The notes under the pieces were generated by a model. That model had not been told where the DNA came from. It made no database searches and was given only the letters and a program-made list of their open reading frames with translations. Made by a program: the position numbers and the translations under genes. Shown here one piece after another: positions 29,699 through 52,118 of a DNA stretch of 64,000 nucleotides; the stretch's first letter is position 1; each line of letters starts with the position of its first letter. Source of the DNA: Dechloromonas sp. (GTDB lineage Bacteria > Pseudomonadota > Gammaproteobacteria > Burkholderiales > Rhodocyclaceae); the NCBI GenBank assembly GCA_028687035.1, contig JAQUAX010000011.1, positions 1 to 64,000 of the forward strand. The letters run 5' to 3'.

Positions 29699-29714
29699 TG
29701 TCGCATTTCCGACA
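29699..29714 (+). promoter_or_regulatory. NifA upstream activator sequence of nifB
   Basis: TGTCGCATTTCCGACA is an exact TGT-N10-ACA NifA-binding site. It ends 64 bp before the sigma-54 -24 element, within the usual range for NifA with IHF-assisted looping. The context (nifB) makes the assignment strong. Confidence 0.85.
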
Positions 29715-29778: not shown

Positions 29779-29794
29779 TGGCACAGCGATTGCT
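29779..29794 (+). promoter_or_regulatory. Sigma-54 (-24/-12) promoter of nifB
   Basis: TGGCACAGCGATTGCT matches the consensus TGGCAC-N5-TTGCW at every defined position. Transcription should start near 29805, giving a leader of about 25 nt before the nifB GTG. Confidence 0.92.
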
Positions 29795-34669: not shown

Positions 34670-35242
34670 ATGAACGGTCCGGACCGCCTGCCGCTGCGCA
34701 GCGTGCTGCTCGCCGTGCTGCTCGCCTGCCCGGCGGCCGGCGACGCGGCCGGCGATCCGAACCGCCCGCTGCTGGCCAGCCTGGTCGCCGGCCAGGCGGC
34801 CGGCGCCGGCTGCCTGCCGGCCGACCTCGGCCTCGGCAAGGCCGCCTGGCGCCACCTGCTCGACCGCTATTTCCCGGGCTGCGGCATCGCCGGGCACGAA
34901 CGCCAGCTCGACGCCATCCCGGAATGGGACGACCTGCGGAAACTGCTGCTCGACCACCGCGCCCGCCGCTCGCCGGCCGAACTGATGGCCGCCAACATCG
35001 TCGCCACCGCCTGCGCCGGCCGCGACCACCTGTGGCAGGACCTGGGCCTGGCCAGCCGCGAGGAACTGAGCCGGCTGATGTGGGTCAACTTCCCCGGCCT
35101 GGCCCGCGCCAACACCGGCGACATGAAATGGAAGAAATTCCTCTATCGCCGGCTCTGCGCCAACGAAGGCATCTACGTCTGTCCCGCGCCGAGCTGCGGC
35201 GTCTGCAAGGATTACGCCAAATGTTTTGGACCGGAGAACTGA
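34670..35242 (+). CDS. nifQ: NifQ, molybdenum donor for FeMo-co
   Basis: A 190-residue protein ending with the diagnostic NifQ cysteine motif C-X4-C-X2-C-X5-C (CPAPSCGVCKDYAKC, about 171-185). NifQ carries a Mo-Fe-S cluster and delivers molybdenum to NifEN/NifH for cofactor maturation. MKWKKFLYRRLC just upstream is a second family hallmark. The N-terminus is Leu/Ala-rich and could be slightly over-extended. It starts 4 nt after the fesII stop and overlaps the draG start by 22 nt. Confidence 0.9.
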   Translation: MNGPDRLPLRSVLLAVLLACPAAGDAAGDPNRPLLASLVAGQAAGAGCLPADLGLGKAAWRHLLDRYFPGCGIAGHERQLDAIPEWDDLRKLLLDHRARRSPAELMAANIVATACAGRDHLWQDLGLASREELSRLMWVNFPGLARANTGDMKWKKFLYRRLCANEGIYVCPAPSCGVCKDYAKCFGPEN

Positions 35243-36171
35243 TCGCCCGCACCGCCCCCGTCCGCCGCCGCGCGATGCCGCTGCGCCCGCCGCTGCAGGA
35301 CCGCGCGGTGGCGGCCTATCTCGGGCTGGCGATCGGCGACGCGCTGGGGGCGACCGTCGAATTCATGACGCCGCGCGAGATCCGCGAACGCCACGGCATC
35401 CACGCCGACCTGACCGGCGGCGGCTGGCTGCGCCTGCGACCGGGCCAGGTCACCGACGACACGACGATGTCGCTGGCGCTGGGCGAATCCATCCTCGCCG
35501 CCGGCGCCGTCGAGGCGCGGGCCGCTGCCGAGGCCTTCGACGCCTGGATGCGCGGCAAGCCGGTCGACATCGGCAACACCGTGCGCCGCAACCTGATCTC
35601 CTTCCGCCAGCACGGCCGTCCCGAGGCCCAGCCGTCCGAACACGACGCCGGCAACGGCGCGGCGATGCGCATCCTGCCGGTGGCGCTGGCCTGCTGCGGT
35701 AAACCGCCGGAAACGACCGTTTCCGCCAGCCGCGCCCAGGCGCACGTGACGCACCACAACGCGCTGTCCGACGCCGCCTGCGAAACGCTCGCCTTCATGG
35801 TCCAGGATTTCCTGGCCGGGCGCGATGCGCTCGACGTCGAACGCGACCGCGTCGGCCGGCTGATCGGCGAATTCCCGGTTTTCGCCTACGACCGCAAGCG
35901 CCGCGACAACCCGGGCGGCTTCGTCGTCGAGACGCTGCAGGCGGTGTTCCAGGCCTTGTTCGCGACCGAGAATTTCGAGGATTGCCTGGTCGACGTCGTC
36001 AACCGCGGCGGCGACGCCGACACCACCGGCGCGATCGCCGGCATGCTGGCCGGCGCCCGCTGGGGCACCGCGGCCATTCCGCGGCGCTGGCTGCGCGCGC
36101 TCGACGAGGACGTCGCCCGCGCCTGCGAAGCCCAGGCCGAGGCGCTGCTCGCCGCGGCCGGCGCCGCCTGA
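35221..36171 (+). CDS. draG: ADP-ribosyl-[dinitrogenase reductase] hydrolase DraG
   Basis: A 316-residue enzyme that removes ADP-ribose from NifH, reactivating nitrogenase after ammonium or darkness shut-down. Di-manganese site motifs are visible: GDALGATVEFMT, TDDTTMSLALG, DAGNGAAMR and GGDADTTGA. The sequence closely follows Rhodospirillum DraG. ATG 35221 has AAGGA 10 nt upstream; ATG 35275 would give 298 residues, nearer the 294 of R. rubrum, but has no ribosome-binding site. The partner transferase DraT is not in this window. It ends 8 bp before the convergent kinase gene. Confidence 0.93.
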   Translation: MFWTGELIARTAPVRRRAMPLRPPLQDRAVAAYLGLAIGDALGATVEFMTPREIRERHGIHADLTGGGWLRLRPGQVTDDTTMSLALGESILAAGAVEARAAAEAFDAWMRGKPVDIGNTVRRNLISFRQHGRPEAQPSEHDAGNGAAMRILPVALACCGKPPETTVSASRAQAHVTHHNALSDAACETLAFMVQDFLAGRDALDVERDRVGRLIGEFPVFAYDRKRRDNPGGFVVETLQAVFQALFATENFEDCLVDVVNRGGDADTTGAIAGMLAGARWGTAAIPRRWLRALDEDVARACEAQAEALLAAAGAA

Positions 36172-38879: not shown

Positions 38880-40151
38880 ATGCGCGAACCTACTGCACTC
38901 TACAACGCCCCCGTCCAGATGGAACCGCTCGTCATCGATTCCTCGAGACCACTGTACGAGCCCTTGATCGGCCTGGCGTACGAGCTTGCCGAGCTGTCAT
39001 CGCGCATCGACGCAAAAGTTCATCCATCCACCGCACGCGGCCTGGCCGATCTCGTCGCAGGAATGAACTGCTATTACTCGAACCTGATCGAGGGACAGCA
39101 CACCTTGCCGCTGGACATCGACAGAGCCCTGCGGGAGCTTGTAAAACCGGAGCAGAAGGACTTGAAAAGCCTCGCCGTCGCCCATGTCGCAACGGAGCGC
39201 TGGGCTCGCAGCCGATCGATCGGCAAGGATTCGCTGCTGCCCTTCGTTCTGGAAGCCCATTTCCGCTTCTGTTCGGCCCTGCCGGAAGACATGCTGCGCA
39301 TCGAGGACGGAACGAAGCTGACGCCGGGAGAGATACGCCGCAGGGATGTTCAGGTCGGTTATCACGTTGCGCCAGCATGGCAATCGCTCGACGCCTTCCT
39401 GGACCGCTTCGTTTCCTTCTACGGAACCCGCCTCGAATCGGCCGGGAAAGGCGGCACCAGCAAACTCGCCGCAATCGTCGCCGCTTTTTGCGCCCATCAC
39501 CGCTTCGTCTGGATTCACCCCTTTCTTGACGGCAACGGGAGAATTGCCCGCATCCTGCTCGATGCGATGCTGCGGGCATGCGGAATCAACGGCGCATCGC
39601 TGTGGTCGATGTCCCGCGGATTTGCCAAGACGCAGGCCGCCTACAAGGCGGCGCTGGCCGAAGCCGACCGCTCGCGCATGGGAGATCTCGACGGCCGAGG
39701 CACGCTCTCGGAAAAGCGTCTCCACGATTTCTGCGACTACGCCATCAGAACTGCGATCGACCAGGCCCGATTCATGGAGGGCATCCTCGACCTCGACAGG
39801 ATCGCGCAGCGCTCGGAAGCCTACTTCACCCGCGTCCGTTTCGACATCAAGGGACGCGAAGCGCACGAACTCTTCATGCGCGCCTTCGTCCATGGCGAAA
39901 TCGAACGCGGCGAAGCAGCCCGGATTACCGGGCTGTCCGAGCGGAGCGCCCGCACCCTCCTGGGCACCCTGCTCGATGAAGGCTTCCTCGAATCGGACAC
40001 CCCGAAAGGCAAGGTACGCGCCGGCTTCCCCCTCCACGCGCTCGGCTCGCTGCTCCCCAACCTGTATCCGGCCGGCGATCTCGATGTCGACGTTGAACAA
40101 CTGAAGGCCGAACGCCGCAGCCGGCGACTGTCGAATCCTCGGGAAAGCTGA
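38880..40151 (+). CDS. Fic-family AMP transferase with built-in inhibitory helix
   Basis: A 423-residue Fic protein that presumably transfers AMP (or another nucleotide part) to a target protein. The catalytic motif HPFLDGNGRIAR begins at His213. An N-terminal SNLIEG (Ser67 to Gly72) matches the [S/T]xxxE[G/N] inhibitory motif of class II Fic proteins, with Glu71 as the obstructing residue. The C-terminal third (about 335-400) looks like a winged helix (GEAARITGLSERSARTLLGTLL). GC is lower than in neighbouring core genes, suggesting transfer. The gene stands alone with its own operator-like promoter. Confidence 0.88.
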   Translation: MREPTALYNAPVQMEPLVIDSSRPLYEPLIGLAYELAELSSRIDAKVHPSTARGLADLVAGMNCYYSNLIEGQHTLPLDIDRALRELVKPEQKDLKSLAVAHVATERWARSRSIGKDSLLPFVLEAHFRFCSALPEDMLRIEDGTKLTPGEIRRRDVQVGYHVAPAWQSLDAFLDRFVSFYGTRLESAGKGGTSKLAAIVAAFCAHHRFVWIHPFLDGNGRIARILLDAMLRACGINGASLWSMSRGFAKTQAAYKAALAEADRSRMGDLDGRGTLSEKRLHDFCDYAIRTAIDQARFMEGILDLDRIAQRSEAYFTRVRFDIKGREAHELFMRAFVHGEIERGEAARITGLSERSARTLLGTLLDEGFLESDTPKGKVRAGFPLHALGSLLPNLYPAGDLDVDVEQLKAERRSRRLSNPRES

Positions 40152-40215
40152 GCGCGGCATTTTCGGTCGGGAGAACTCCAGACCCTAAACAGAAGTCGAG
40201 ATCACGAAAAGCAGA

Positions 40216-41535
40216 TCAGGCGGCCATTCGATACGGCAGGCCATCTGTCCAATGATGGTGAATGTAGCCATTGTTGAGCAACAGGCTCGTTACCGTCTGC
40301 TCGCTGACGTCGAACTCGGCGGCGGCTTCTTCGATGGCGTACGAAGAGAAATCACCGCCCAGAAAGGACGTCAATGAATCGATGGGGCACAGAAACTCTG
40401 CGGCGAAAGCACGCTGGTACTTTTGACGAGAAGTCGATAGGTCGGTTGATGCAAGCCAACGCGCTTCGCGGGTCGAGGAGCGGAGGTACTCGCCCAGGAA
40501 ACGCGCCAGTTCGAAGCGTCGCCCGGCCAGGTTGCGCCTGCGCGGAACGAACTTCAATTGATGATCGTTCAGCGGTATCGCCACCGCGACAGGCGACCGT
40601 CCTACCGGCGCCGACCAGTTGGTTGCCGCTTCACTGCTTATGCCAAGCAGGTCATGCAGACTGCAGTCGGGAACCGGACCACCGACATTGCCCATCAGGT
40701 GACGAAGCGCACGAGCGTCATGAATCGCACGCTCCCAAGGTGCCCCGTGCTCCAGGTGAGCGATGCTGTCAGGCGAGATATCGGGGGTGCCGACAATTCC
40801 GCCGGCACCAGCCAGCTGCCCGATGAGCGCCAAATCCGGGGTCGCTCCCGATGCTGCAATCGCCGGCGCCAGCTCCGAGAGTGCCGCGTCTCCGATCTGG
40901 CTCTCCCACTGCAATGCCGCGTCCAGCGCCTGCTCCGGGCATTCCTCGGGATCGAATCCCAGTTCGGCCTCCAGCTTCCTCCGGCGGACCGCGTCGGGAT
41001 CCGCCAGATCTTCCTGCACGAGCGTCCACAGGTGTGCCAAATTCGACCCGGCGAGCTCCTTGGCATCCAGGCGGGCCAGCACGCTGTGCATGAAGCGCTC
41101 GACGCTCTGCTGAAAGCCAGACAACGTGATCATTCTCGGCACTTCCAGCGCTTGCAGGTATTGCACCGACTGGTCCGGCATCATCGACGTCCCGGCCCAC
41201 ACGTGAATCGCCTCACCATCCGGGATGAAGATGACGCGCGGCCACACGAAACCGTGATTGGCTGCACCGAGTTCATGGACCATGCGCCAGTCATGGCCAG
41301 GCTGCTGCGTTGGCAAGGGCTCATGGTTGAGACGCCACCACGAACTCGCAAACCACATGGCCAGCGGGTAGGCAGAGACGAAGACGTTGTCACGCACGGT
41401 CTCCGCCCAGATATCCTGATTCCGGGTCAAGCTGATGTTGTCGACATACATGTCGAGCAGGGCTGCAGTGGCCGTGACTTCCGGCTCTCCGGATGCCGCT
41501 GCCATCCACTTCGTGTTGATGCGCAGTTCAGCCAT
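40216..41535 (-). CDS. ImmA/IrrE-like protein with degenerate peptidase motif
   Basis: A 439-residue protein, not recognised over most of its length. The C-terminal part reads RRFELARFLGEYL then RAFAAEFLCPIDSL, matching the order of an ImmA/IrrE (DUF955) domain. The expected HExxH zinc motif is replaced by Arg-Phe-Leu-Gly-Glu, so it is probably not an active metallopeptidase. A winged-helix-like tail (IEEAAAEFDVSEQTVTSLLLNNGYI) follows, as in that family. The N-terminal 300 residues are acidic and helical. Its ATG lies within the end of the preceding small gene (8-nt overlap), so the two form a unit. Toxin/antitoxin or defence roles are conceivable but unproven. Confidence 0.6.
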   Translation of the reverse strand: MAELRINTKWMAAASGEPEVTATAALLDMYVDNISLTRNQDIWAETVRDNVFVSAYPLAMWFASSWWRLNHEPLPTQQPGHDWRMVHELGAANHGFVWPRVIFIPDGEAIHVWAGTSMMPDQSVQYLQALEVPRMITLSGFQQSVERFMHSVLARLDAKELAGSNLAHLWTLVQEDLADPDAVRRRKLEAELGFDPEECPEQALDAALQWESQIGDAALSELAPAIAASGATPDLALIGQLAGAGGIVGTPDISPDSIAHLEHGAPWERAIHDARALRHLMGNVGGPVPDCSLHDLLGISSEAATNWSAPVGRSPVAVAIPLNDHQLKFVPRRRNLAGRRFELARFLGEYLRSSTREARWLASTDLSTSRQKYQRAFAAEFLCPIDSLTSFLGGDFSSYAIEEAAAEFDVSEQTVTSLLLNNGYIHHHWTDGLPYRMAA

Positions 41536-41968
41536 CGAGGCGACCCCAACGATGAATCACTTCCAGCGCCAGAGGATCAGTCTCGGGCATGGGGTAGCCG
41601 TGATAGATCCCCAAGCAGGGGTTCTCAAGCTGCGCCTCCATGGCAAAACCGTGGTCAGTGACTGCCCAGATGTTCTTCGGCCACTCGCCAACCATCCGGT
41701 CGCTCACAAGGCCCTTGCGCAGTCCCGCGCGCAGCAACTCTTCGGCTTCGTCACGCTTGAAAATCCTGGCGACATCGCACAATGATTTCCCTTGTCTTGG
41801 ATCGGAAGGTGGAACCAGCCCGAAATCGCCGGGGTTCTTCTTATGCTCCGGGTTGCCGCCATAGCGAGCGCGACAGCCCAAGGCCTGGAACTCGGCCATA
41901 CGCACTTCTGCCTCAGCAGGCGAGAGTAGTTTGCGTTTGGGATTAAACTGGGCGTAGCGACGCTTCAT
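41528..41968 (-). CDS. Small protein of unknown function paired with the ImmA-like gene
   Basis: A 146-residue basic protein with no recognised domain. The most distinctive segments are RARYGGNPEHKKNPGDFGL and RKGLVSDRMVGEWPKNIWAVTD. I recall proteins with the NPEHKxNPGDF pattern as small partners of larger genes in accessory regions, but without known function. The start is uncertain: ATG 41968 lacks a clear ribosome-binding site and TTG 41986 is an alternative. It overlaps the ImmA-like gene, implying coupled translation. Confidence 0.6.
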   Translation of the reverse strand: MKRRYAQFNPKRKLLSPAEAEVRMAEFQALGCRARYGGNPEHKKNPGDFGLVPPSDPRQGKSLCDVARIFKRDEAEELLRAGLRKGLVSDRMVGEWPKNIWAVTDHGFAMEAQLENPCLGIYHGYPMPETDPLALEVIHRWGRLDG

Positions 41969-42042
41969 CGTGTATGGGGCAGGCAATGACCGCTTTTGAG
42001 TCTACCAGCTAATTCAATGCTCAGGCCAAGGTGGATCGGTAC

Positions 42043-42372
42043 TCATGCATGCGCGTGATTTTCGGGCTCGACGGAAAGGCGCAGACCGACCGTCTTCAAC
42101 ACCGCAAGCAGCGTTTTCAGCGTCGGGTTACCTTTGGGTGACAGGGCGCGATAAAGGGATTCCCGGCTGATACCCGCTTCGGCAGCAACCACGCCGAGAC
42201 CGCCGTAGGCTTCGGCGACCGTGCGCAGTGCAAGCAACCCGGCTGCCCGGTCATCGGGATTGTCGAGCGATTCCATTGCCGCTTTCAGATACTCGACGGC
42301 CAATTCACGATCGGCCCGCAATTCGGCAAGCTCCAACTCATGGTGCGATACCGCGCCTTCGACTCTGCTCAT
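42043..42372 (-). CDS. Antidote-like HTH protein (HigA-type), no toxin partner seen
   Basis: A 109-residue protein. An N-terminal helical region (ELRADRELAVEYLKAAMESLD) is followed by an HTH: GGLGVVAAEAGISRESLYRAL, then KGNPTLKTLLAVLKTVGLRLSV. This is the HigA branch annotated as 'addiction module antidote protein', normally paired with a HigB/RelE-like toxin just upstream. No toxin gene is visible on either side. The start at 42372 is preceded by AAGGTGG; an in-frame ATG at 42390 is less likely. A perfect palindrome lies 30 nt upstream. Confidence 0.8.
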   Translation of the reverse strand: MSRVEGAVSHHELELAELRADRELAVEYLKAAMESLDNPDDRAAGLLALRTVAEAYGGLGVVAAEAGISRESLYRALSPKGNPTLKTLLAVLKTVGLRLSVEPENHAHA

Positions 42373-42401
42373 ACCTGCCACCTTTTCCATTCCGACCGAT
42401 T

Positions 42402-42417
42402 GTAGCTTAAAAGCTAC
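42402..42417 (-). promoter_or_regulatory. Palindromic operator of the antidote-like gene
   Basis: GTAGCTT-AA-AAGCTAC is a perfect 7+7 palindrome 30 nt before the start codon, in a short AT-rich stretch. This is the usual position for an autoregulatory HigA-type operator. Confidence 0.6.
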
Positions 42418-42451
42418 TAAAAGCAGTATCGGCGGCCCCGAATCACCCGAC

Positions 42452-42868
42452 TCAAGCGCCTGCCCGACTCTCCGTTCGGGGCAATCGAGCTTCGTCCGCA
42501 CGCCTCAAACACCCCGCCAGCGCCGCGTCCATCGTCGCCAGGTGGGTGGCAAACCAGCCGGGCAGCGCTTCGGCGTAGCGGCGTGCCGCGGCCAGACGGC
42601 CGGCGGCGACGCCGCGGCCGAAGTGGGCGAGTTCGCCGAGCACCCGCAGGTGCTCGGCATGGTGCTCGCCGGTCGCCGGGAAGCGGCAGGCCTTCATCAG
42701 CCGGCCCTCGTTGTCGAAATGCCGCCGCGTATGCTCGTGCAACTGCGCGAACAGCGCCGGGAATTCGGCATCGCCGGCCCGGCGCAGCGCGTCGGCCAGT
42801 TCGACGAACTCGCGGTGGGTGGCATCCATCTCCGCCACCCCGAGCGCCTGCGCTTCCGACCAGGGCAT
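42452..42868 (-). CDS. Bacteriohemerythrin
   Basis: A 138-residue hemerythrin-domain protein that binds O2 at a di-iron centre. Ligand positions can be followed in order: MDATHREF (His), HEHTRRHFDNEG (His and the HxxxE pair), GEHHAEH (His pair) and HLATMD (HxxxxD). It is the last gene of a three-gene operon whose first gene is preceded by a NifA-type site; its ATG overlaps the previous stop (ATGA). O2 buffering or delivery during nitrogen fixation is a reasonable inference. Confidence 0.9.
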   Translation of the reverse strand: MPWSEAQALGVAEMDATHREFVELADALRRAGDAEFPALFAQLHEHTRRHFDNEGRLMKACRFPATGEHHAEHLRVLGELAHFGRGVAAGRLAAARRYAEALPGWFATHLATMDAALAGCLRRADEARLPRTESRAGA

Positions 42869-43419
42869 CAGACGGCCCCGTGCGTTTCGCGTTTGGCGCT
42901 ATTGGTCTTCGCGTCCTCGACCGCCATCGCCGGCAGCTTGAAACGGTGGTCCTTGATCGCCTCGTACAGCGTCACCACCTTGTCGGCGGCGCCCTGCCCC
43001 TTGAAATCGCCCTTCTCCAGCGCGGCGAGATCGATCAGTTCGTTCCACACCATGCCCTGGACCAGCGGGATGAACGCCACGTTGGCGCCATTGACCGTGG
43101 AAACGAAACCGTCGTCGATGTTCACCGTGAACAGCACGACCAGCGTGCCCGGCTTCAGGTCGGCGCCGTACTTGTCGAGCAGGGACGGGAAATGCTGCAG
43201 CTCGTCCAGCGAGCCGGCCAGCAGCTTCAGCTCGTCGCCGGCAGCCAGCACGATGGCCTGCTTGAGCACCTCGACCGGCGGCTTACGCCGGCCCTGGGCG
43301 TCGGCGACCTCGCCCTCGCGGAGCACCAGTTCGCCGCGATAGGCGGCCCAGCCGGCGGTACTGGCGGCTTCACGGAAATTGGCGTTGAAAAAGAGCGGTT
43401 CGTAGCGATCCAGCAACAT
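42868..43419 (-). CDS. Unknown protein in the SIR2-like/hemerythrin operon
   Basis: A 183-residue soluble protein, not recognised. There is no signal peptide or transmembrane helix. It has acidic helices and a hydrophobic segment GTLVVLFTVNIDDGFVSTVNGANVAFIPLV, described here in parts, that could form a beta sheet. The composition looks like a cytoplasmic, folded protein. GGGAGGAAAA precedes the ATG at 43419, 26 nt after the SIR2-like gene's stop; its own stop overlaps the hemerythrin start. The context points to a function shared with both neighbours. Confidence 0.65.
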   Translation of the reverse strand: MLLDRYEPLFFNANFREAASTAGWAAYRGELVLREGEVADAQGRRKPPVEVLKQAIVLAAGDELKLLAGSLDELQHFPSLLDKYGADLKPGTLVVLFTVNIDDGFVSTVNGANVAFIPLVQGMVWNELIDLAALEKGDFKGQGAADKVVTLYEAIKDHRFKLPAMAVEDAKTNSAKRETHGAV

Positions 43420-43445
43420 GCGGTTTTCCTCCCGTTTTGAAAAAG

Positions 43446-44282
43446 TCAGGCCGCGACTGCGGCGCCGATGAACTCGAACACGTCGCCCTCGATGATCTCG
43501 AGGCCGACCTTCCTGCAGAAGCGGCGTTCCTTGTCGGTCGGCGCCGCGATGAAGGCCCAGCCGGACGGCTCGGCCGCCGCGTAGATCATGTCGGCCAGCA
43601 CCATGCGCTCGGTGTCGCGGTTCAGCCGCAGGCCCATCAGCAGGTAGCGCTTGCCCTGACGCAGCGCCTTGATCTCCGGCGGGATCGAGAAGCCGCCCAT
43701 CAGCTCGGTGATGAAATCCACGTAGTCGGCGTCCGACGCGATATAGACGCCCTCCGGCCGCGGCGTGCCCATCGGCTTGAACAGGATGGGCAGCGCCGGA
43801 TCGACCGCCTGGGCCCTGGCATAGGCCTGGCCGTCCCAGCGCCAGACCTTGTAGCGGAAATCGGTGCCGCCGATGCGCGCGATGCCGACCACCAGGTTGT
43901 GCGGCACGCCGGCGTACGAATCCTGCAGCTGCGTGTCGCGGTTGATGTCGATCACGTAATGCGGCGAAATCGACTTCAGCCAGTCGTGCACCGCGCCGCG
44001 CGTCCATGCCGTCTCGCCGTAGGTGCGGTTCAGGAAGCGGGTGACCGTGGTCCGCCCGCGCTTCAGCTCCACGTTCATCGCCGCGCGCGGGAATTCGTAC
44101 ATCAGCTTGGGCGCCATCGGCTTGCCGTCGTTCATCGCGAGGATCAGCGAATCGCTGTCGGCCGGGATCGGCGCGCCGCTCGCCGCGTTGCGCACGTCGG
44201 CCAGCACGCCGGGGCCGAGATAGGGAACGATGCTGCCGTCGCGCAGGCCGGCCAGCAGGTGTTGTCGGAGTTCTGGGGTCAT
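43446..44282 (-). CDS. SIR2-like domain protein, candidate NifA-regulated
   Basis: A 278-residue soluble protein. GSIVPYLGPGVL at the N-terminus resembles the NAD-binding loop of SIR2-type folds. The middle (PHYVIDINRDTQLQD) and late (ILFKPMGTPRPEGVYIASDADYVDF, KRYLLMGLRLNRDTERM) segments follow the SIR2_2 pattern of His/Gly-rich strand, two-residue turn and Gly-x-x-x-x-Arg/Asp end. Several catalytic positions of true sirtuins are missing, so NAD binding or cleavage is uncertain. It heads a tightly packed three-gene operon with an unknown gene and hemerythrin, downstream of a TGT-N10-ACA site. Confidence 0.72.
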   Translation of the reverse strand: MTPELRQHLLAGLRDGSIVPYLGPGVLADVRNAASGAPIPADSDSLILAMNDGKPMAPKLMYEFPRAAMNVELKRGRTTVTRFLNRTYGETAWTRGAVHDWLKSISPHYVIDINRDTQLQDSYAGVPHNLVVGIARIGGTDFRYKVWRWDGQAYARAQAVDPALPILFKPMGTPRPEGVYIASDADYVDFITELMGGFSIPPEIKALRQGKRYLLMGLRLNRDTERMVLADMIYAAAEPSGWAFIAAPTDKERRFCRKVGLEIIEGDVFEFIGAAVAA

Positions 44283-44318
44283 CGGGATTCTCTGGAGTTG
44301 GGTTGGCATCCCCTGACA

Positions 44319-44333
44319 GCAAGTTCCAGACCC
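44319..44333 (-). promoter_or_regulatory. Candidate sigma-54 promoter of the SIR2-like operon
   Basis: On the minus strand GGGTCT-GGAAC-TTGC keeps the invariant GG-N10-GC spacing of -24/-12 promoters, though the -24 block is poor (GGGTCT against TGGCAC). Transcription would begin near 44307, about 25 nt before the start codon, the same leader length as nifB. Confidence 0.45.
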
Positions 44334-44383
44334 GGGCCGTACCCACGCAACGGCGCGGCTTTCCGGGCGCCGCGCCGACGGCT

Positions 44384-44399
44384 TGTCGGCTTCGCGACA
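44384..44399. promoter_or_regulatory. NifA-type upstream activator sequence of the SIR2-like operon
   Basis: TGTCGGCTTCGCGACA is an exact TGT-N10-ACA site, here a full palindrome. The flanks match the nifB site: both read TGTCG-N6-CGACAAG. It lies 50 bp upstream of the candidate sigma-54 promoter. The 350-bp gap it occupies (44283-44632) otherwise shows no gene. A chance hairpin is the alternative explanation. Confidence 0.6.
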
Positions 44400-44632
44400 A
44401 GACATCGACACCGGCCATGCCCCTGCTGAGGCCTGCGCCATCTATTCAGGACGCCATGCCAACCCGTCGCTGCCGCACAAGAAGCATCTCACCCGACGAT
44501 GCCGAATCGATGTTGCGTCAAACGAATCCTCGGGATGACAATGGCCTGGGCTTGTCGATTTACGCATCAGGAAAGTCATTCATCCGAATTTTCCCTCAGT
44601 CCCGGGAGCAAACATTCGAACGAGGTAAATCC

Positions 44633-46213
44633 ATGACGACGATCAAACGCCTGTGGTGGCTGCTAATCCTGCCCTTGGCACCGGGAGCATGTTCGAGCAT
44701 TCACTACCAGCAGCAAATTGCCAAACCTCCCGCATACGAAACGGCCAAAGCCGCATCGCCCGATCCTCGATCCAACTCCCCCCATCGAAAGATCGCGATC
44801 TTCTTCGACGGCACGGCCAACAACGTCGAGTCGGATACCAATGTCAAACGCTTGCATTCACTGGTTTCGCTGCAAAACAAACCCGAAATCGCCACCCTGT
44901 ACATCGAGGGCGTGGGAGTCGACAACGACCTGATCGGCGCCGGCACCGGCCGGGGGTTCAGAAACCGCGTCGCGCTGGCCTACAGCTTTTTGCTGGCCAA
45001 TTACCATGCCGGCGACCGGATCTATCTCTTCGGTTTCAGCCGGGGCGCCTACCAGGCGCGTGCGCTGGCTTCCATGCTGTACTACGTCGGCCTGCCCGAT
45101 GCGCCGGAGCAGAAAGAAAATTCGCTTTTTGAAGAGAATCTTCAGCATGCAATGACCCTGTTTGACGAAATGAAGGAAGGCTTTCACGAACGCCGCTACC
45201 CATGCTCGATTGCCGGCGTGCGCGCCGAATCGACAGGGCGCTACAAATCCCGCCGGGTCGAGGTTCTCGGTCTGTGGGACACCGTCGAGGCATTGGGCGG
45301 CGGGATACTGGGCTGGAGCGAACGCCTCGGGCACAAGGCGGACATCAAGGCCTTCCACGTCGACATCGACGAGCCCAACGACCGTTACGGCGATCAACTC
45401 TGGAATGTGAACCACGTATTTCACGCCGTTTCGCTGGACGACGACCGGGAATGGATCTTCACGCCGCTGCTGGCTTCACGGCAGCACCTGCTGAGCAACA
45501 AACGCCTGCCGAACCGCGACGAGCGATCGACAAGGTTTGCTGACGACTGCCCATCCCCGAAGGAGGTCGACTTCTCGACGATATCCATCGAGGGCGATGC
45601 TTCGCCCGGAGCCCCGAACATCTCGGAAGTCTGGTTCGCCGGCGCCCACAGCGACGTCGGAGGCGGATACGTCGGCACCGACCTGCCCGGCGTCAGCCTG
45701 AACTGGATGATCGGCATGCTGGAGAAAAACGCGAACGCCGGTCTGCTGCCCCGGGGGAGCGAAGTCCGCGAAGACCCCTTCGGCAGCAGCCACGATCCCG
45801 AGGCCGGGATGTGGTCGCCGCTCTATCACAACGTCAACCGCAACCTCGCAGCCCATGCCCTCGGCCAAGCCGCGACCTGCGGCCTGGCCGGAGACTCGAC
45901 TCGCTGCGGTGCGGCGGGCATCCATGAACCAATGGCCGGGCTGGCCGGCAAGCTCTGCGTACATGAAAGCGTGTTCCAGCGGCGCCGCCTGATGCCGCCG
46001 CGAGACCACGAAAACACCTATCTCGACCTGCTGGAACCCGGCACGATCTGCGTCAGGGCAAGCGATCAACTGAGCAATCCGCGAATCCTGCGCCAGGCCC
46101 CCTGGCCAAAGGACGCTGCCGGCTGCCCCTCCGGTACCCGGGAACTGATCATCGAATCCTGGCAACGGAACGGTGAGAAATGCCCCTCTTTCGTCCGGGA
46201 GGCAACACGATGA
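44633..46213 (+). CDS. DUF2235 alpha/beta-hydrolase, probable exported lipoprotein
   Basis: A 526-residue protein of the DUF2235/Tle1-like hydrolase family. KIAIFFDGTANN (about 54-65), the nucleophile elbow GFSRGAYQAR, LWDTVEALG and AGAHSDVGGGY are the family hallmarks, giving a Ser-Asp-His triad. The N-terminus has a hydrophobic stretch ending in PGAC, so it is likely secreted and perhaps lipidated, unlike most type VI lipase effectors, which lack signal peptides. CGAGG precedes the ATG. The stop overlaps the next gene. No type VI genes are nearby. Confidence 0.8.
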   Translation: MTTIKRLWWLLILPLAPGACSSIHYQQQIAKPPAYETAKAASPDPRSNSPHRKIAIFFDGTANNVESDTNVKRLHSLVSLQNKPEIATLYIEGVGVDNDLIGAGTGRGFRNRVALAYSFLLANYHAGDRIYLFGFSRGAYQARALASMLYYVGLPDAPEQKENSLFEENLQHAMTLFDEMKEGFHERRYPCSIAGVRAESTGRYKSRRVEVLGLWDTVEALGGGILGWSERLGHKADIKAFHVDIDEPNDRYGDQLWNVNHVFHAVSLDDDREWIFTPLLASRQHLLSNKRLPNRDERSTRFADDCPSPKEVDFSTISIEGDASPGAPNISEVWFAGAHSDVGGGYVGTDLPGVSLNWMIGMLEKNANAGLLPRGSEVREDPFGSSHDPEAGMWSPLYHNVNRNLAAHALGQAATCGLAGDSTRCGAAGIHEPMAGLAGKLCVHESVFQRRRLMPPRDHENTYLDLLEPGTICVRASDQLSNPRILRQAPWPKDAAGCPSGTRELIIESWQRNGEKCPSFVREATR

Positions 46214-46893
46214 AAGCGCAAACTCCACTGTCCCGGCACACCGCGAGCCGGTATCGCCATCTGGCCGTTCTCTCCCTGGGAGCGCTTTGCGGATGCGCCT
46301 CGGTCGTCGTCGATCCGCAAGCGGTCGACCAATTTCTCCCCGAGCAGGCCGCCAACGGAGCCTCCTGCCGAGAACTGAACGCGCCGGGCTCGAACGGCAA
46401 GTCATGCCGGTTCATAGTCCAACCCGGCGTCCGCTACGATCAGCAAGGCAATCGCACCGGCATCCACGTAAAGCCCGACGAACGCTACCGGATTACGCTG
46501 CCCGACAAACAGTTCTGGTACGACCTCGACCGCCGGGTTCCCGCCCCCGATGGCGACAGCGGCGGCGGAATAACCAAGTGCATGGGGTTCACCAAGCACC
46601 ATACCGAACTGAAATGGTTTGCCCTGATGGCGACAGTCAAGCCGCTCGGGCCGCGATCCGCATTCCCCGGTGATCCCCACGCGAAAGCCATATCGACCGG
46701 CAAAGACGTTTTCTGCCCGGCAGTTGAAGGCGAACTCAGTTTTTACGTCAATGATGCGGCATGGTTTTACGACAACAATTCCGGGCGCATCCTGGTCGTG
46801 ATCGAGCGACTGCCGGATTGCCCCGGGTGCAGCAACGCCGCGGCCGAACAGCAGTGCAACAGCCAAACGACTCCGGGCGCCAGCCCCCGCTGA
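46210..46893 (+). CDS. Lipoprotein coupled to the DUF2235 hydrolase
   Basis: A 227-residue protein. A long signal peptide ends at LCGC, a lipobox, near residue 29. The second half (YRITLPDKQFWYDLDRRVP ... LSFYVNDAAWFYDNNSGRI) resembles the jelly-roll of PA-IL-type galactose lectins, a weak similarity by eye. The ATG overlaps the hydrolase stop (ATGA), so the pair is translationally coupled. It could be an immunity protein, a substrate-binding partner or a cell-surface lectin. Confidence 0.65.
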   Translation: MKAQTPLSRHTASRYRHLAVLSLGALCGCASVVVDPQAVDQFLPEQAANGASCRELNAPGSNGKSCRFIVQPGVRYDQQGNRTGIHVKPDERYRITLPDKQFWYDLDRRVPAPDGDSGGGITKCMGFTKHHTELKWFALMATVKPLGPRSAFPGDPHAKAISTGKDVFCPAVEGELSFYVNDAAWFYDNNSGRILVVIERLPDCPGCSNAAAEQQCNSQTTPGASPR

Positions 46894-46949
46894 GCAGCGC
46901 CCTCGGCAACCCCGAACCAATCCGGTTGCCGATGCGCCATAATCCCCGC

Positions 46950-48230
46950 ATGCTCCACGACCCCCACTACCTGCACAGCATCGTCACGCTGGGCGAGCGC
47001 CACCCGGTGATCGCCCACCGGCCGATCACCACGGTCAACGGCATCAAGCTGGTCGATTCCGGCGTCCGCCTGTCGGCAGCGCTGTACGACAAGCTGGTCC
47101 GGCACAAGCTGCTGCCGGAAATCGACGAGTGCCTGAGCATCGCCGACCCCGTCACGCCCGCCGCGCTGGCCGCCGCCGCGCAGGCCCTGCTCGATGAAGG
47201 CGGGCTGGCCGGCCAGCTCGCCCGGCACATCGAAACGGCCGCAGTCGGCCGCGTCTTCGCCGCGCTGCCGCTCGCCCCGGCGCTCGCCTTCAAGCTGACG
47301 CTGGCCCGCGAACAGCGCCCCCGGCTGTTCCGCCACAGCCTGCAGGTCGCGCTGTGCGCCGTGATCCTCGCCATGCAGCACCCGGGCGCCAGCGAGCAAG
47401 GGCTGATCCAGGCCGCCGCCGCCGGCCTCTTCCACGACCTCGGCCTGCTCCACGTCGCTCCCGAAGTCGTCGACCGGCCCGGCGCGCTCAGCGAACAGGA
47501 ACGCCACCATATCTACTCGCACCCGGTCGCCGGCCACCTGATCCTCAGCCGCTTCCCCGAATGGCACCCGACGGTCAGCGCCGCCGTGCTCGAACACCAC
47601 GAACGCCTGGACGCCAGCGGCTACCCGCGCGGCCTCGGCGGCGACGACATCTCGCCGCTCGGCCAGCTGCTCGCCGTCGCCGAACTGGCCGCGTCGATGT
47701 TCTTCGGCCAGCGTTCGATCCCGCTCGCCGACAGCGTTCATGTCGTGCTGCGCCTGAACCAGGGCAAGATCAACCGCGACATCGCCGACCTGCTGACCAG
47801 CCTGGCCCTCGACGGCCCGCACAACGCAGCGCCGGACGCCGGAGGCGTCGATTATTCGGCGGTACTCGGCCGGCTGGTCGGGCTGTCGATGGCGATCCAG
47901 CACTGGCACCAGCTCGCCGGACAGTTCGCCGACCAGCCGATCGCCGCGCTAATCGGCCGGCGCCTCGAACGGCTGGAACACAACCTGGCCGGCATCGGCA
48001 TCGACCTGCAGTACTGGGTGATGATCGACAACGACCTGGCGGCCGATACCGCGTCGCTGCACGAACTGGCGACCGGCGTCGAGGAAGCGCGCTGGCAACT
48101 GCGCGCCATCGCCCAGGAAGCGCGCCGCGACTGGGAGCGCCTGCAGCCGAAACATCCCCGCGCCAGACAGGAAATCCACGCCTGGATAGCGCGCGTCGAG
48201 GAAGACGACGCGCCGGGCAACCCGGCCTGA
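46950..48230 (+). CDS. HD-GYP domain protein (probable c-di-GMP phosphodiesterase)
   Basis: A 426-residue cytoplasmic protein. The N-terminal third is not recognised. The HD-GYP domain runs from about 115 to 270: RHSLQ, AGLFHDLGLLHV, HPVAGHLIL, EHHERLDASGYPRGL and the following AELAASM. The C-terminal 150 residues are helical. Hydrolysis of cyclic di-GMP is expected. The start at 46950 is preferred because CATAAT at 46938-46943 looks like a -10 element; ATG 46932 would then lie outside the transcript. It is followed by a strong hairpin. Confidence 0.85.
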   Translation: MLHDPHYLHSIVTLGERHPVIAHRPITTVNGIKLVDSGVRLSAALYDKLVRHKLLPEIDECLSIADPVTPAALAAAAQALLDEGGLAGQLARHIETAAVGRVFAALPLAPALAFKLTLAREQRPRLFRHSLQVALCAVILAMQHPGASEQGLIQAAAAGLFHDLGLLHVAPEVVDRPGALSEQERHHIYSHPVAGHLILSRFPEWHPTVSAAVLEHHERLDASGYPRGLGGDDISPLGQLLAVAELAASMFFGQRSIPLADSVHVVLRLNQGKINRDIADLLTSLALDGPHNAAPDAGGVDYSAVLGRLVGLSMAIQHWHQLAGQFADQPIAALIGRRLERLEHNLAGIGIDLQYWVMIDNDLAADTASLHELATGVEEARWQLRAIAQEARRDWERLQPKHPRARQEIHAWIARVEEDDAPGNPA

Positions 48231-48256
48231 ACGGCCGCAGCCGGAGTCAACGCAAA

Positions 48257-48278
48257 GGCCCCACCTAAGGGTGGGGCC
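48257..48278. terminator. Hairpin terminator between HD-GYP gene and HTH gene
   Basis: GGCCCCACC-TAAG-GGTGGGGCC is a perfect 9-bp GC-rich stem with a 4-nt loop, 27 bp after the HD-GYP stop. A second hairpin (48287-48310, TGATTGCT paired with AGCAATCA) overlaps the stop of the convergent HTH gene. Together they can stop transcription from both sides. Confidence 0.8.
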
Positions 48279-48307
48279 TCCAGTTGTGATTGCTTGTTGG
48301 AGAGCAA

Positions 48308-48622
48308 TCAAACCATGGCAAGTCGATCGACCGTATCCGGGAATTTCTCGACCAGGCGAATCAGCAGAGAGGCTTGAGCATTCGGCTTGGCCCTGCCCTG
48401 CTCCCAATTTTCCAGCGTCCGCGGGTTGGTGCGTAAATACCCGGCGAATACCGGCCGAGAGAGGTGCAGGCGTTCACGCAACCTCACCAACTCTTCCGCC
48501 GTAACCTCTGCCAATGGCTGAACCTCGACCTTGTGCGTGCGCAACGTCTGCTTCCCGGCACGCTCGTTCGCCAGCGCGTCGAAGCCCTCGGCAATCTCCG
48601 CAAACAAGTCACGTTTTTTCAT
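48308..48622 (-). CDS. HTH regulator of the NadS/HigA antitoxin type, no toxin partner seen
   Basis: A 104-residue protein. An N-terminal helix (RDLFAEIAEGFDALANERAG) precedes a linker (KVEVQPLAEVTAEEL), and the HTH reads RERLHLSRPVFAGYLRTNPRTLENWEQG. This is the NadS/HigA-like layout in which the antitoxin follows a RelE/HigB-type toxin. Upstream (48623-48758) no toxin frame is visible. GGAGG lies 8 nt before the ATG. A small palindrome upstream could be its operator. Remnant or solitary regulator. Confidence 0.8.
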   Translation of the reverse strand: MKKRDLFAEIAEGFDALANERAGKQTLRTHKVEVQPLAEVTAEELVRLRERLHLSRPVFAGYLRTNPRTLENWEQGRAKPNAQASLLIRLVEKFPDTVDRLAMV

Positions 48623-48689
48623 CGTCTGGCCTCCAGTTCTGCTTTCAACATCGCCTTGAGCAACTTCTTTTCACTGACGATAAAACATA

Positions 48690-48700
48690 CGCAAGTTGCG
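48690..48700 (-). promoter_or_regulatory. Possible operator of the NadS-like gene
   Basis: CGCAA-C-TTGCG is a perfect 11-bp palindrome on the minus strand, 68 nt upstream of the start codon, just before TATGTT, a possible -10. TTGCTA about 18 bp earlier could be the -35. Short, so only suggestive. Confidence 0.35.
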
Positions 48701-48758
48701 GACAGATAGCAAAAGCTATTCAGCAGTATCAACTGCAATCCAGTGAATCAGAACAAAT

Positions 48759-49766
48759 TCAGCGCGCCGTCCGCTGCTGGAAATGCCAGGTGCTGGCGCA
48801 CATGTCGTCCAGCGAACGCACGGCGCGCCAGGCCAATTGATCTGCGGCCTTGTCGGCTTTCGCGTAGCAGGCGGCCACATCTCCCGGCCGCCGCGGCGCG
48901 ATCCGGTAAGGCACCGGCCGGCCGCTCGCCTGCTCGAAGGCGCGGACCATGTCGAGCACGCTGTAGCCGCAACCGGTGCCCAGATTGAAGGCATGCCAGC
49001 CCGCCCCGGCCGACCCGGCGAGAAAATCGATCGCCGCCCGGTGACCTTCGGCGAGATCCATCACGTGGATGTAATCGCGCACGCCGGTACCGTCCGGCGT
49101 CGGGTAATCGTCGCCGAAAACGTTCAGGAAAGGCAGTCGACCGCCGGCGACCCGCGCGATGTAAGGCATCAGGTTGTTGGGGATGCCGTTCGGGTCCTCG
49201 CCGATCAGCCCGCTCGCATGGGCGCCGACCGGGTTGAAATACCGCAGGCAGGCGATCCGCCAGTGGGTGCCGGAAGCCGCCAGTTCGGCGAGCATTTCCT
49301 CGATATGCAGTTTCGTCCGGCCATACGGGTTGGTCGCCCCGGTCGGATGCACCTCGTCGAGCGGAAGATAGGCGGGCTGGCCATAGACCGTCGCACTGCT
49401 GCTGAACACCAGCGTACCGACACCGGTTTCATCCATCGCCTGCAGCAGGCTGATCGTCCCACCCACGTTGTTGTCGTAATAGCGCAGCGGCTGTTCGACC
49501 GATTCGCCGACCGCCTTCAGGCCGGCGAAATGCACCACCGCCCCAATCCCCTCGTCGGCCAGCACGCGGCGCAGCAGCGCGGTATCGCGGATGTCGCCCT
49601 CGACGAAAGGAAAACGGCTCCCGGTGATCTGCGCCAGCCGGTCGACGACATCGGCAGAACTGTTGGACAGGTTGTCGAGCAGCACGGGCCGGTGCCCGGC
49701 CTCGGCGAGAACGACGGCCGTATGGCTGCCGATGTAACCGGTTCCACCGGTCAGCAGGATATTCAT
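48759..49766 (-). CDS. galE: UDP-glucose 4-epimerase
   Basis: A 335-residue short-chain dehydrogenase-type epimerase interconverting UDP-glucose and UDP-galactose (and perhaps the N-acetyl forms). NAD motif GGTGYIGSH at the N-terminus, FSSSATVYG with the catalytic Ser, YGRTKLHIEE with the catalytic Tyr and Lys, and RYFNPVGAH all match GalE. Located at the edge of the polysaccharide cluster, from which it is separated by HipBA and the small toxin/antitoxin-like pair. AAGGTGAAAG lies before the ATG. Confidence 0.95.
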   Translation of the reverse strand: MNILLTGGTGYIGSHTAVVLAEAGHRPVLLDNLSNSSADVVDRLAQITGSRFPFVEGDIRDTALLRRVLADEGIGAVVHFAGLKAVGESVEQPLRYYDNNVGGTISLLQAMDETGVGTLVFSSSATVYGQPAYLPLDEVHPTGATNPYGRTKLHIEEMLAELAASGTHWRIACLRYFNPVGAHASGLIGEDPNGIPNNLMPYIARVAGGRLPFLNVFGDDYPTPDGTGVRDYIHVMDLAEGHRAAIDFLAGSAGAGWHAFNLGTGCGYSVLDMVRAFEQASGRPVPYRIAPRRPGDVAACYAKADKAADQLAWRAVRSLDDMCASTWHFQQRTAR

Positions 49767-49821
49767 TGCACTTTCACCTTTCTGAAAAATCGGTCACAGA
49801 TTGCGCTTGCCCCGGCGACTC

Positions 49822-51174
49822 TCAGGCGTCCACCAGCAACTTGCGCAGTTCTCTGGTCGAAACATCATCGACATGCCGGAATGCGGGAGCGACCTTGGCC
49901 TGTTCTTGCTCGGGAACCTCTGCCTGATCGAAGTAGACGCGCCACTGGCGCACCACCCGCCAGACCTCCCCGATCAAACGGCAGGCAGTTTCCCGCGACA
50001 ACGTGAATCCGGCGTGGGCCGCGAACGCATTGTCGAGCGTCGCGAGCCTGCCTTGCGGCCCCACCCCGAGGTGCAGGAAGCGCTCCGTGGCCAGACTGGC
50101 CCGGGGCAGGACGTCATAAAGCGGGCTGAGCCTCCAGCCCGGCAAGCGATGATCCCAAACAAAACCATGATTACGGAGATGGTCGTCGTCGTTGCTGACG
50201 AAGATGTTGAAGACCATCCGTTTGAATAATTCCTCGTTGTCTTGCCTGATCACTGAGGGATGGCAGTAGCGGCGCACCGCCCCGGCCAGATCGGCGTAGG
50301 ACTTCGTACGCGATTCGGTCTCATCGCACGCAACCATGGTCAATCCGCTGACGAATCCCAGCCGGTGTTCCACGCGTCCGCCACCGGGACCGGCGGCAAG
50401 CAGGTCGCCATCGGGATCGGGTAGCGTATCCGGGGCAAGCCAGTAGCGATCGAAGCGACGAATCAGCATGATGCGTCGGTTGCCGAGCATCATCGTGCGA
50501 ACGGGCGGAACGTTCAGCCCGGCATGAGCAGCCAGTTGCAGGGCTGCGCACTCGATGGCCGGGACATCGAAAGCATCTTGCCGGCTGGCGAACTTGGCCA
50601 GCCAGAGCACTCCGGCCTCATCGCGGACCGAGGCTTTGGGGCGTGCGCCGCCCAGGGCGGTACCATCCATGAAAATGGCTTCAAGGTGTGCCGGGATGGG
50701 CAAACCCGCTTCAATGCGCTCCGCAGCTTCAACGAGGTGTGCCAAGGTATGCCATCCGCCGGCACCGGCCGTCGGGCCATCATGGATTTCCTGGCGGATA
50801 TCGAGGGCGCCGACGCGCTCGCTGCCGGCATGCAGAAGATACTGCGACTCGGGCAGGCTGTTGGCAGGCACTTTCAGCTTGGCTTCGATGACCCGCCGCC
50901 CCCAGGAATCCGGCGCAGCATCCCGAATGCCGCCAAAGAAGGACAAGCCGGCAATCGGCAGCAAACGCTTGCCGCGTATTGCTTCCCGATCGGCCAGCCC
51001 CAGGCTCACCGGATCGACCTCCAGCGCATCGCTGCGCTTCAGGTAATTCAGGCCGTAGGCAAAGCTCGAGGCCAGCAGTTGCCCGGATTCTTCGGTAAGC
51101 GTCAGTTGCCCGCACGGCGCCCAGTCGGTAGCGATGTGAGCAAAGGCCATCAGCCTGATTTCCTTTGCCGCCAT
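49822..51174 (-). CDS. hipA: HipA-type serine/threonine kinase toxin
   Basis: A 450-residue HipA-like kinase. The N-terminal subdomain includes RLLPIAGLSFFGGIRDAAPDSWGRRVI, the glycine-loop region GGARPKASV, the catalytic loop SNDDDHLRNHGFVWD (Asp base, Asn metal ligand) and the LSPLYDVLP Asp. HipA toxins phosphorylate glutamyl-tRNA synthetase or related targets, causing growth arrest; the target here is unknown. It is 3 nt downstream of the hipB gene. Confidence 0.9.
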   Translation of the reverse strand: MAAKEIRLMAFAHIATDWAPCGQLTLTEESGQLLASSFAYGLNYLKRSDALEVDPVSLGLADREAIRGKRLLPIAGLSFFGGIRDAAPDSWGRRVIEAKLKVPANSLPESQYLLHAGSERVGALDIRQEIHDGPTAGAGGWHTLAHLVEAAERIEAGLPIPAHLEAIFMDGTALGGARPKASVRDEAGVLWLAKFASRQDAFDVPAIECAALQLAAHAGLNVPPVRTMMLGNRRIMLIRRFDRYWLAPDTLPDPDGDLLAAGPGGGRVEHRLGFVSGLTMVACDETESRTKSYADLAGAVRRYCHPSVIRQDNEELFKRMVFNIFVSNDDDHLRNHGFVWDHRLPGWRLSPLYDVLPRASLATERFLHLGVGPQGRLATLDNAFAAHAGFTLSRETACRLIGEVWRVVRQWRVYFDQAEVPEQEQAKVAPAFRHVDDVSTRELRKLLVDA

Positions 51175-51177
51175 GGC

Positions 51178-51519
51178 TCAGAAATCCAGCGCTTCGAGTT
51201 CGGCGGAGCTCAGGTCGCGGACGCGCTTCGACTGTTCACGCACACTCAATGCGACGAGGGCCGGGTCCGATTCGGACAGCAGATCGAGCAGCGTGCAGCC
51301 GGGGGCAATCGCGTCCAGGTAGCGCAGGACCTGGCCGATGGCCAGCCCGGGGTCCCCGTGCTCGATTCGATAGACGGTATTGCGCGACAGGCCGGCACGC
51401 AGCGCTGCATCGGTTTGCTTGATGTGGCGGGCGATCCGCAAGCGGGCAAGTCGCTGGCCGAGCTGGCTGCACTCCTGCAGCAAGGACGGCGAAAGAAGGT
51501 CGGCCTGCTTGATTTTCAT
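51178..51519 (-). CDS. hipB: HipB-like HTH antitoxin
   Basis: A 113-residue XRE protein: LGQRLARLRIARHIKQTDAALRAGLSRNTVYRIEHGDPG (about 18-56, described here by parts) is a standard HTH, followed by a short dimerisation/tail region. It precedes hipA with a 3-nt gap, the usual antitoxin-first order. The ATG at 51519 lacks a clear Shine-Dalgarno sequence; the frame extends upstream without a better start. Confidence 0.88.
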   Translation of the reverse strand: MKIKQADLLSPSLLQECSQLGQRLARLRIARHIKQTDAALRAGLSRNTVYRIEHGDPGLAIGQVLRYLDAIAPGCTLLDLLSESDPALVALSVREQSKRVRDLSSAELEALDF

Positions 51520-51684
51520 GATCGTAATATCGAGCCTAACAACCCAAATGAAGGAAATTACGAACAATTTATTTCCGGGGCCGCTCGCTGTCAATCAGTG
51601 TTCGTCATTTCGAGCGCAAGGCATCAACGCCTCGATTCAACGAAGGCACACCATCTCAAACCGCAAGCGGAACCCCACCCTCGC

Positions 51685-51825
51685 GGAAAATCACCCCGCC
51701 GTCGCGGTCGACCGCGCCGAATGCAGCAAATCGACGATACGCTCGCCCGGGCCGTAGCCGCTGACCTGTTCCTGCAGCGCGCCGCGCACCGAAACGTAGT
51801 CGTCGGCCTTGATCGCGCCGACCAG
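51685..51825 (-). pseudogene. Relic of a second WbpM/PglF-like gene: 3' end
   Basis: This 141-bp segment is a near-identical direct repeat of 52578-52718, offset by 893 bp. It preserves the last 44 residues of the dehydratase (GAIKADDY, VSGY, PGERIVDLLHSARSTATAG). The upstream coding sequence is missing here and replaced by the DUF2442/DUF4160 pair. The rest of the 356-bp gap (51520-51875) shows no gene. Confidence 0.8.
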
Positions 51826-51875
51826 AGCTCTGGCCGAACCATCGGCATTCCTGCAGCAGAGACAGAACAGCTTCA

Positions 51876-52118
51876 TCAGACCGGAAGAGACCGGTCGTAG
51901 AGCGTTTCAGGCGCAATGTCGATATTTCCTGGCCAAACAACGGTGCCGTAATCAACGGATGCCTTTGTAAAGAGAGGAGACCCTTTCAGCTGGACAAAAG
52001 GCTTCTTGTCCATCAGCGGAGTCATATCGAATACCCTTTTTTCCCCGTTCTCGAACTCCAGAAACAGAGTGTAATCAGGCTTCGCATCTACCCGAACCAC
52101 GTCTAACAGGATGCCCAT
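51876..52118 (-). CDS. DUF2442 protein
   Basis: An 80-residue protein: LEFENGEKRVFDMTPLMDK and GTVVWPGNIDIAPETLYD are DUF2442 hallmarks. DUF2442 genes regularly pair with DUF4160 genes, as here (14-nt gap), in a toxin/antitoxin-like arrangement whose activity is not established to my knowledge. GGAGTGC precedes the ATG. It lies inside the remains of a duplicated sugar-dehydratase gene. Confidence 0.87.
   Translation of the reverse strand: MGILLDVVRVDAKPDYTLFLEFENGEKRVFDMTPLMDKKPFVQLKGSPLFTKASVDYGTVVWPGNIDIAPETLYDRSLPV

Follow-up and report, generated by a model that had tools for sequence, protein, structure and literature searches.

Why should genes for a SIR2-like protein and a hemerythrin stand together behind what look like nitrogen-fixation control sites? 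The question arises in a stretch of Dechloromonas sp. DNA (NCBI GenBank assembly GCA_028687035.1, contig JAQUAX010000011.1, positions 1 to 64,000; these 64,000 nucleotides as a whole are called the window here), where three minus-strand genes encode a SIR2-like protein, a 183-residue middle protein and a hemerythrin. An earlier reading of the window, hereafter the original prediction, took them for an undescribed accessory unit of nitrogen fixation (nif) that might couple NAD state with O2 handling. Our analysis suggests that they probably form a NifA- and sigma-54-controlled nif accessory operon, in which a SIR2-like protein without its catalytic pair, a partner protein and an O2-binding hemerythrin protect or mature nitrogenase. 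The evidence, drawn from sequence, covers gene order, conserved control sites, close linkage with nif, a predicted SIR2 fold from which the catalytic pair is gone, and intact hemerythrin ligands. For the control sites and the linkage it appears strong, and from the whole we infer a joint function of the three proteins.

The operon and its control sites

The SIR2-like gene (43446..44282, 278 aa), the middle gene (42868..43419, 183 aa) and the hemerythrin gene (42452..42868, 138 aa) are all open frames on the minus strand, as had been claimed. Their packing is tight: 26 nt separate the SIR2-like gene from the middle gene, as predicted, and the middle and hemerythrin genes overlap, although the junction is TGATG with a single common base and not the ATGA overlap first described. 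The operon lies on contig C12 of a 3.3-Mb genome, and nifH is found on the same contig (C12:86986).

About 117 bases before the start codon of the SIR2-like gene is a palindromic NifA-type upstream activator site, TGTCGGCTTCGCGACA (44384..44399), an exact TGT-N10-ACA. A sigma-54 -24/-12 promoter element of the form GG-N10-GC, GGGTCTGGAACTTGCT, is located at position -51 (about 44318..44333, minus strand). For comparison, nifB has a NifA site at 29699..29714 and a sigma-54 promoter, TGGCACAGCGATTGCT, at 29779..29794, both on the plus strand. The original prediction held that the operon site and the nifB site have TGTCG-N6-CGACAAG in common, and both the site and the likeness were confirmed: this pattern gives three matches against 0.01 expected, two being the two strands of the operon site and the other the nifB site at 29699. 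The shorter TGT-N10-ACA is no more frequent than chance would have it, with 2 seen against 3.76 expected in the window and a genome total of 107 where the reversed control pattern gives 113, and because neither count is above chance we discarded such counts as evidence. The stricter TGTCG-N6-CGACA matches the genome at 10 places and its control at 1, and eight of these ten, the operon site included, fall on two stretches with nif genes.

A second nif region of the same genome (G000:C11:256780-287925; loci L086 and L087) holds NifA-like and nifE/N-like matches and five strict NifA sites, all accompanied by a sigma-54-like element no more than 120 bases away. Two strict sites outside the nif regions (C5:89228 and C19:44525; L249 and L250) have no convincing sigma-54 partner and were set aside as probably due to chance.

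Conservation among relatives speaks for both elements. Across 37 genus relatives and the window, an exact TGT-N10-ACA stands at -136 to -110 of the SIR2-like start in 37 of 38 sequences, and the GG...TTGC of the sigma-54 promoter at -56 to -46 in all 38; shuffled upstream sequences gave means of 0.18 and 0.14, respectively, with a maximum of 2. The sole relative lacking an exact NifA site (L056) has one mismatch at the same place. Taken alone, the window's sigma-54 element, put forward originally as a promoter candidate, is weak (GGGTCT-N5-TTGCT, with a poor -24 half), yet it is the very element that is conserved in all 38. Conservation drops between and around the NifA site and the promoter, except in the stretch before the start codon; this stretch (about -20 to -8, majority CCCCACTTCAGAGCAAA) may be only the ribosome-binding region. 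In seven of the 37 relatives the middle gene is found apart from the SIR2-like gene, and there it has control sites of its own, with an exact NifA site at about -128 in six and a sigma-54-like element at -59 to -64 in all seven. The operon looks to be under NifA/sigma-54 control, as far as sequence can indicate.

The perfect hairpin at about 44384-44399 was also considered as a terminator or repeat and rejected: its folding advantage over shuffled sequences is slight (z -1.6), no terminator is scored there, and what relatives conserve is the dyad of the NifA site without the rest of the palindrome.

Co-occurrence with nitrogen fixation

Co-occurrence with nif genes had been chosen beforehand as one of two tests that could overturn the proposal, and co-occurrence is what we found. 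In the class sample of 266 genomes, the SIR2-like family (profile A2) occurs in 21: 20 exceed the nifH cut-off, and the other has part of nifH at the end of a contig. This amounts to 21 of 25 nif-positive genomes and 0 of the 241 others, where the 241 include five with weaker nifH-like matches (221-231 bits, cut-off 394) and where the Fisher tests of co-occurrence ignore relatedness. Such a link is unusually tight for a gene with no known role. The middle family occurs in nine of the same 266 genomes, all above the nifH cut-off. In the phylum sample of 398 genomes the SIR2-like family is present in 17; 14 of these exceed the nifH cut-off, and the remaining three have, one each, nifK above its cut-off, a partial nifK, and only a nifE/N-like match.

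Closer relatives show the same pattern for the middle protein, which is found in 44 of 100 genomes (the window's own included). Thirty-eight of the 44 exceed the nifH cut-off, and all 38 genomes above that cut-off carry the protein, the 56 genomes without the middle gene having been searched for nifH only. Among the other six, two (G001, G026) have nifH fragments together with nifK above its cut-off, three (G012, G054, G088) have nifK above its cut-off, and for the sixth (G021) the sole match is nifE/N-like, nifB lying close to the operon (L048).

When the surroundings were read for core nif genes, at least one turned up in 28 of the 37 genus stretches, in 49 of the 80 named loci and in 18 of the 19 chosen stretches with the SIR2-like gene, counts that were made on often short contigs with Paraburkholderia proteins as queries. 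Twenty stretches had been chosen from SIR2-positive class and phylum genomes, some with ends set to include a known nifH; one of them (L210) missed the SIR2-like gene. The closest named loci are those of Azonexus and Dechloromonas species. Across the genus and in other genomes of the class, the SIR2-like gene is often divergent from nifH and often followed by the hemerythrin gene, and in Rhizobium, Paraburkholderia and Methylococcus it is in or near nifB-fdxN-nifZ-nifT operons. The conserved control sites and the linkage to nif genes support the proposal of a nitrogen-fixation accessory unit.

A SIR2 fold without its catalytic pair

The SIR2-like protein scores just below the cut-off of Pfam SIR2_2 (PF13289; E 8.6e-5, 23.1 bits against 24.5). 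Many of its genus orthologues exceed that cut-off, profile-profile comparison gives 99.6%, and the predicted structure has a complete SIR2 fold. The nearest solved structures are the NADase-type SIR2 proteins ThsA, DSR2 and KomC, rather than deacylases.

Catalytic-site residues, on the other hand, are replaced within this fold. In the window's protein the serine has become L27, the threonine D112 and the histidine M171; Asn114 is kept. Among 82 distinct sequences of the nif group, the catalytic His is replaced in 77 and the remaining five have Trp instead of Asn. Asn and His occur together in none of the 82, nine of which were assigned to the group by sequence after the motifs had been seen and not by neighbourhood, against 21 of 21 ordinary SIR2 members, which are the remaining 21 of 30 loci from the same search. 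The nine share 60-70% identity with nif-linked members and no more than 28% with ordinary ones; leaving them out gives 0 of 73. The homologue sets used comprise 66 of 80 and 45 of 49 sequences, near-duplicates having been left out.

Because the pair is lost family-wide, the suggestion that the unit couples to NAD state through SIR2 chemistry finds no support; plain NAD binding by the SIR2-like protein would be compatible with the loss. The loss also disfavours the published guess of a deacetylase and points to a binding role, which can be tested.

The middle protein and the hemerythrin

The middle protein had been called unrecognised, and profile searches bear this out: Pfam, NCBIfam and PADLOC gave no named family, only one chance-like NCBIfam match (E 0.07). 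When 18 members of its family were searched, three Pfam families were matched by one member each, at a best E of 0.0005. The protein has a confident alpha/beta structure model with no clear fold match in the PDB, and its family is nif-linked; in Paraburkholderia it adjoins nifHDK, with ankyrin-repeat genes. Ankyrin-repeat genes recur near the middle family and nifHDK in Paraburkholderia and several Betaproteobacteria (L091, L093 and 16 of 80 named loci).

The third gene encodes a single-domain hemerythrin (Pfam Hemerythrin, PF01814; 36.4 bits against a cut-off of 25.3). The diiron ligands of hemerythrins follow the scheme H, HxxxE, HxxxH, HxxxxD, and the full set is present as H18, H46, H50, E54, H69, H73, H109 and D114; the comparison of hemerythrins leaves out one distant match (L169). 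Placed behind a NifA-type promoter, a hemerythrin is a plausible O2-handling part for nitrogenase.

Genomic surroundings

That the operon sits in an accessory region rather than the main nif cluster is true of this genome, where it lies between nifB...draG (29.7-36.2 kb) and nifHDK (at about 87 kb of the contig) amid mobile and toxin-antitoxin-type genes. It does not extend to many relatives, in which the operon is about 3-9 kb from nifB or nifH. The interval 38880-52000 holds a Fic-like gene (a mob_myst_B match below its cut-off), an antitoxin-like gene (42043-42501), a Tle1-like lipase (44633-46213), an HD-domain protein and a HipA-like protein, and gives the impression of accessory DNA that was inserted into this genome's nif region.

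The nifB region encodes DraG, the ADP-ribosyl-dinitrogen reductase hydrolase (34924-36171, 402 bits), some 6 kb away from the operon; through NAD or ADP-ribose it may be connected with the SIR2-like protein. It also encodes a flavorubredoxin-like protein (32604-33926), possibly another O2/NO-handling gene near nif.

A probable nif accessory operon and its alternatives

How might the three proteins act together? At low oxygen and low ammonium, NifA would bind at about -117 and drive sigma-54 polymerase at -51, and all three proteins would be made together with nitrogenase. The SIR2-like protein would be a 'pseudo-SIR2', a catalytically dead fold acting by binding, either to a nucleotide (NAD(H) or ADP-ribose) or to a nif protein partner, and would neither hydrolyse NAD nor remove acetyl groups. 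Hemerythrin would bind O2 near nitrogenase and the factors that mature it, buffering O2 locally, and the middle protein would probably serve the same end, either as a partner or in assembly. The unit would likely have the purpose of protecting or maturing nitrogenase components when traces of O2 are present.

Several observations weigh against this proposal. The SIR2-positive genome G424 shows only a nifE/N-like match, and the genus stretches and named loci that were not counted above are cut short or give no core nif match to the Paraburkholderia queries. Four of the 25 nif-positive genomes in the class sample, and 24 of the 38 nifH-positive ones in the phylum sample, lack the SIR2-like gene, so nitrogen fixation can do without it. 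Control of the middle gene itself is harder to make out beyond the genus. Of 35 named loci at which it does not come after a SIR2-like gene, a count that leaves out the split genus genomes, a sigma-54-like element at -66 to -46 is present in 27, an exact NifA site within 300 bases in just 12, and the two together in 11. Hemerythrin was not found at the otherwise similar loci L117, L122, L133 and L140, nor adjoining the 14 Trp-type SIR2 members whose surroundings were read, and so is not essential to SIR2 function. Finally, the changed active site could carry out some other chemistry.

The three genes might instead be co-regulated nif passengers with no joint function, separate accessory genes that came under one promoter in one lineage. 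The trio does come apart elsewhere: the SIR2 gene follows nifT in rhizobia, the middle gene has ankyrin-repeat genes and nifH as neighbours in Paraburkholderia, and in some cases the hemerythrin is missing. However, SIR2-like and hemerythrin genes are paired outside the genus as well, next to nifH in several genomes of the class (L213, L215, L216) and at three further named loci (L142, L143, L145), and we consider mere passengers somewhat unlikely. A nitrogenase regulator that binds ADP-ribose or NAD and is tied to the DraT/DraG modification of NifH strikes us as improbable: the SIR2-like family is also found in symbiotic rhizobia, which mostly lack DraT and DraG. Such a regulator would nevertheless fit the nearby draG, the SIR2 fold kept in the predicted structure, and the Dechloromonas aromatica nif cluster, which lists DraG and DraT (PMC2907700; for this and the papers cited below, statements concern the part of the text available).

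Enzymatic roles fare worse. A working NAD-dependent deacylase that deacetylates nitrogenase or NifA, of the kind suggested for Zymomonas mobilis ZMO1821, is very unlikely given that no nif-group member retains both catalytic residues and that the closest folds are of the NADase type. Those folds belong to defence NADases and would favour an NAD-consuming defence or NAD-depleting module travelling with nif genes by chance, but no PADLOC model matched even with E as high as 1, and the lost catalytic pair, the NifA/sigma-54 sites and the tight nif link also argue against it; we give this explanation next to no credence.

The NifA- and sigma-54-controlled accessory operon is thus the reading we prefer. 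A broader and more tentative version, which we find possible if on balance doubtful, is that many proteobacterial diazotrophs have in common a dedicated 'pseudo-sirtuin', a SIR2 fold that is catalytically dead, as a core-like accessory factor of nitrogen fixation, to which one branch adds a hemerythrin and a possibly new-fold protein as an O2- and nucleotide-responsive protection or maturation complex. Additional nif factors are relevant to moving nitrogen fixation into new hosts.

Comparison with known systems

The description of the unit as undescribed holds in part. A SIR2 gene as a nif neighbour is already known, and several papers list such proteins as uncharacterised; our searches of the open-licence literature found neither the trio nor its conserved promoter nor the dead SIR2 active site. 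In Rhodobacter capsulatus the SIR2 family protein Rcc03262, next to NifT, is detected by proteomics in the wild type but not in a double nifA deletion (PMC6925177); it is presumably a homologue of the operon's SIR2-like protein. ZMO1821 of Z. mobilis rises with nitrogenase and was guessed to be a deacetylase (PMC8600466; also PMC8594446), PST_1325 of Pseudomonas stutzeri is listed as a SIR2 protein adjoining nifH (PMC11332353), Rhodovulum nif operons include a SIR2-like gene (PMC9412634), and a nif cluster figure includes a hemerythrin (PMC11208148). Neither 'SIR2' nor 'hemerythrin' occurs in the main text, as available, of the D. aromatica genome paper or the Azoarcus BH72 NifA paper.

Rcc03262, ZMO1821 and PST_1325 are likened to the operon's protein by nif-cluster position and published description, not by sequence. 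The SIR2 proteins of Rhizobium and Paraburkholderia plasmid nif clusters have the same nif-cluster position and are about 25-27% identical to it. Within the family, Azonexus-group members have Asn and Met at the two catalytic positions and mostly precede the middle gene and hemerythrin, whereas rhizobial-type members have Trp and often follow nifT. The middle protein belongs to the same family as the uncharacterised BPHY_RS38250 of Paraburkholderia phymatum and its relatives beside nifHDK, with about 25-29% identity and invariant residues in common; BPHY_RS38250 differs in being divergent from nifHDK and followed by ankyrin-repeat and zinc-ribbon genes, with no hemerythrin. The operon's hemerythrin has all the diiron ligands of bacteriohemerythrins and exceeds the cut-offs of TIGR02481 and PF01814, but falls below that of NF033749 (65.3 of 84 bits); it also differs in sitting behind a NifA/sigma-54-type promoter. 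From ThsA, KomC and DSR2, the SIR2-like protein differs in having lost the catalytic Asn/His pair, in having no effector or sensor domain attached, and in its nif context and NifA-type control sites.
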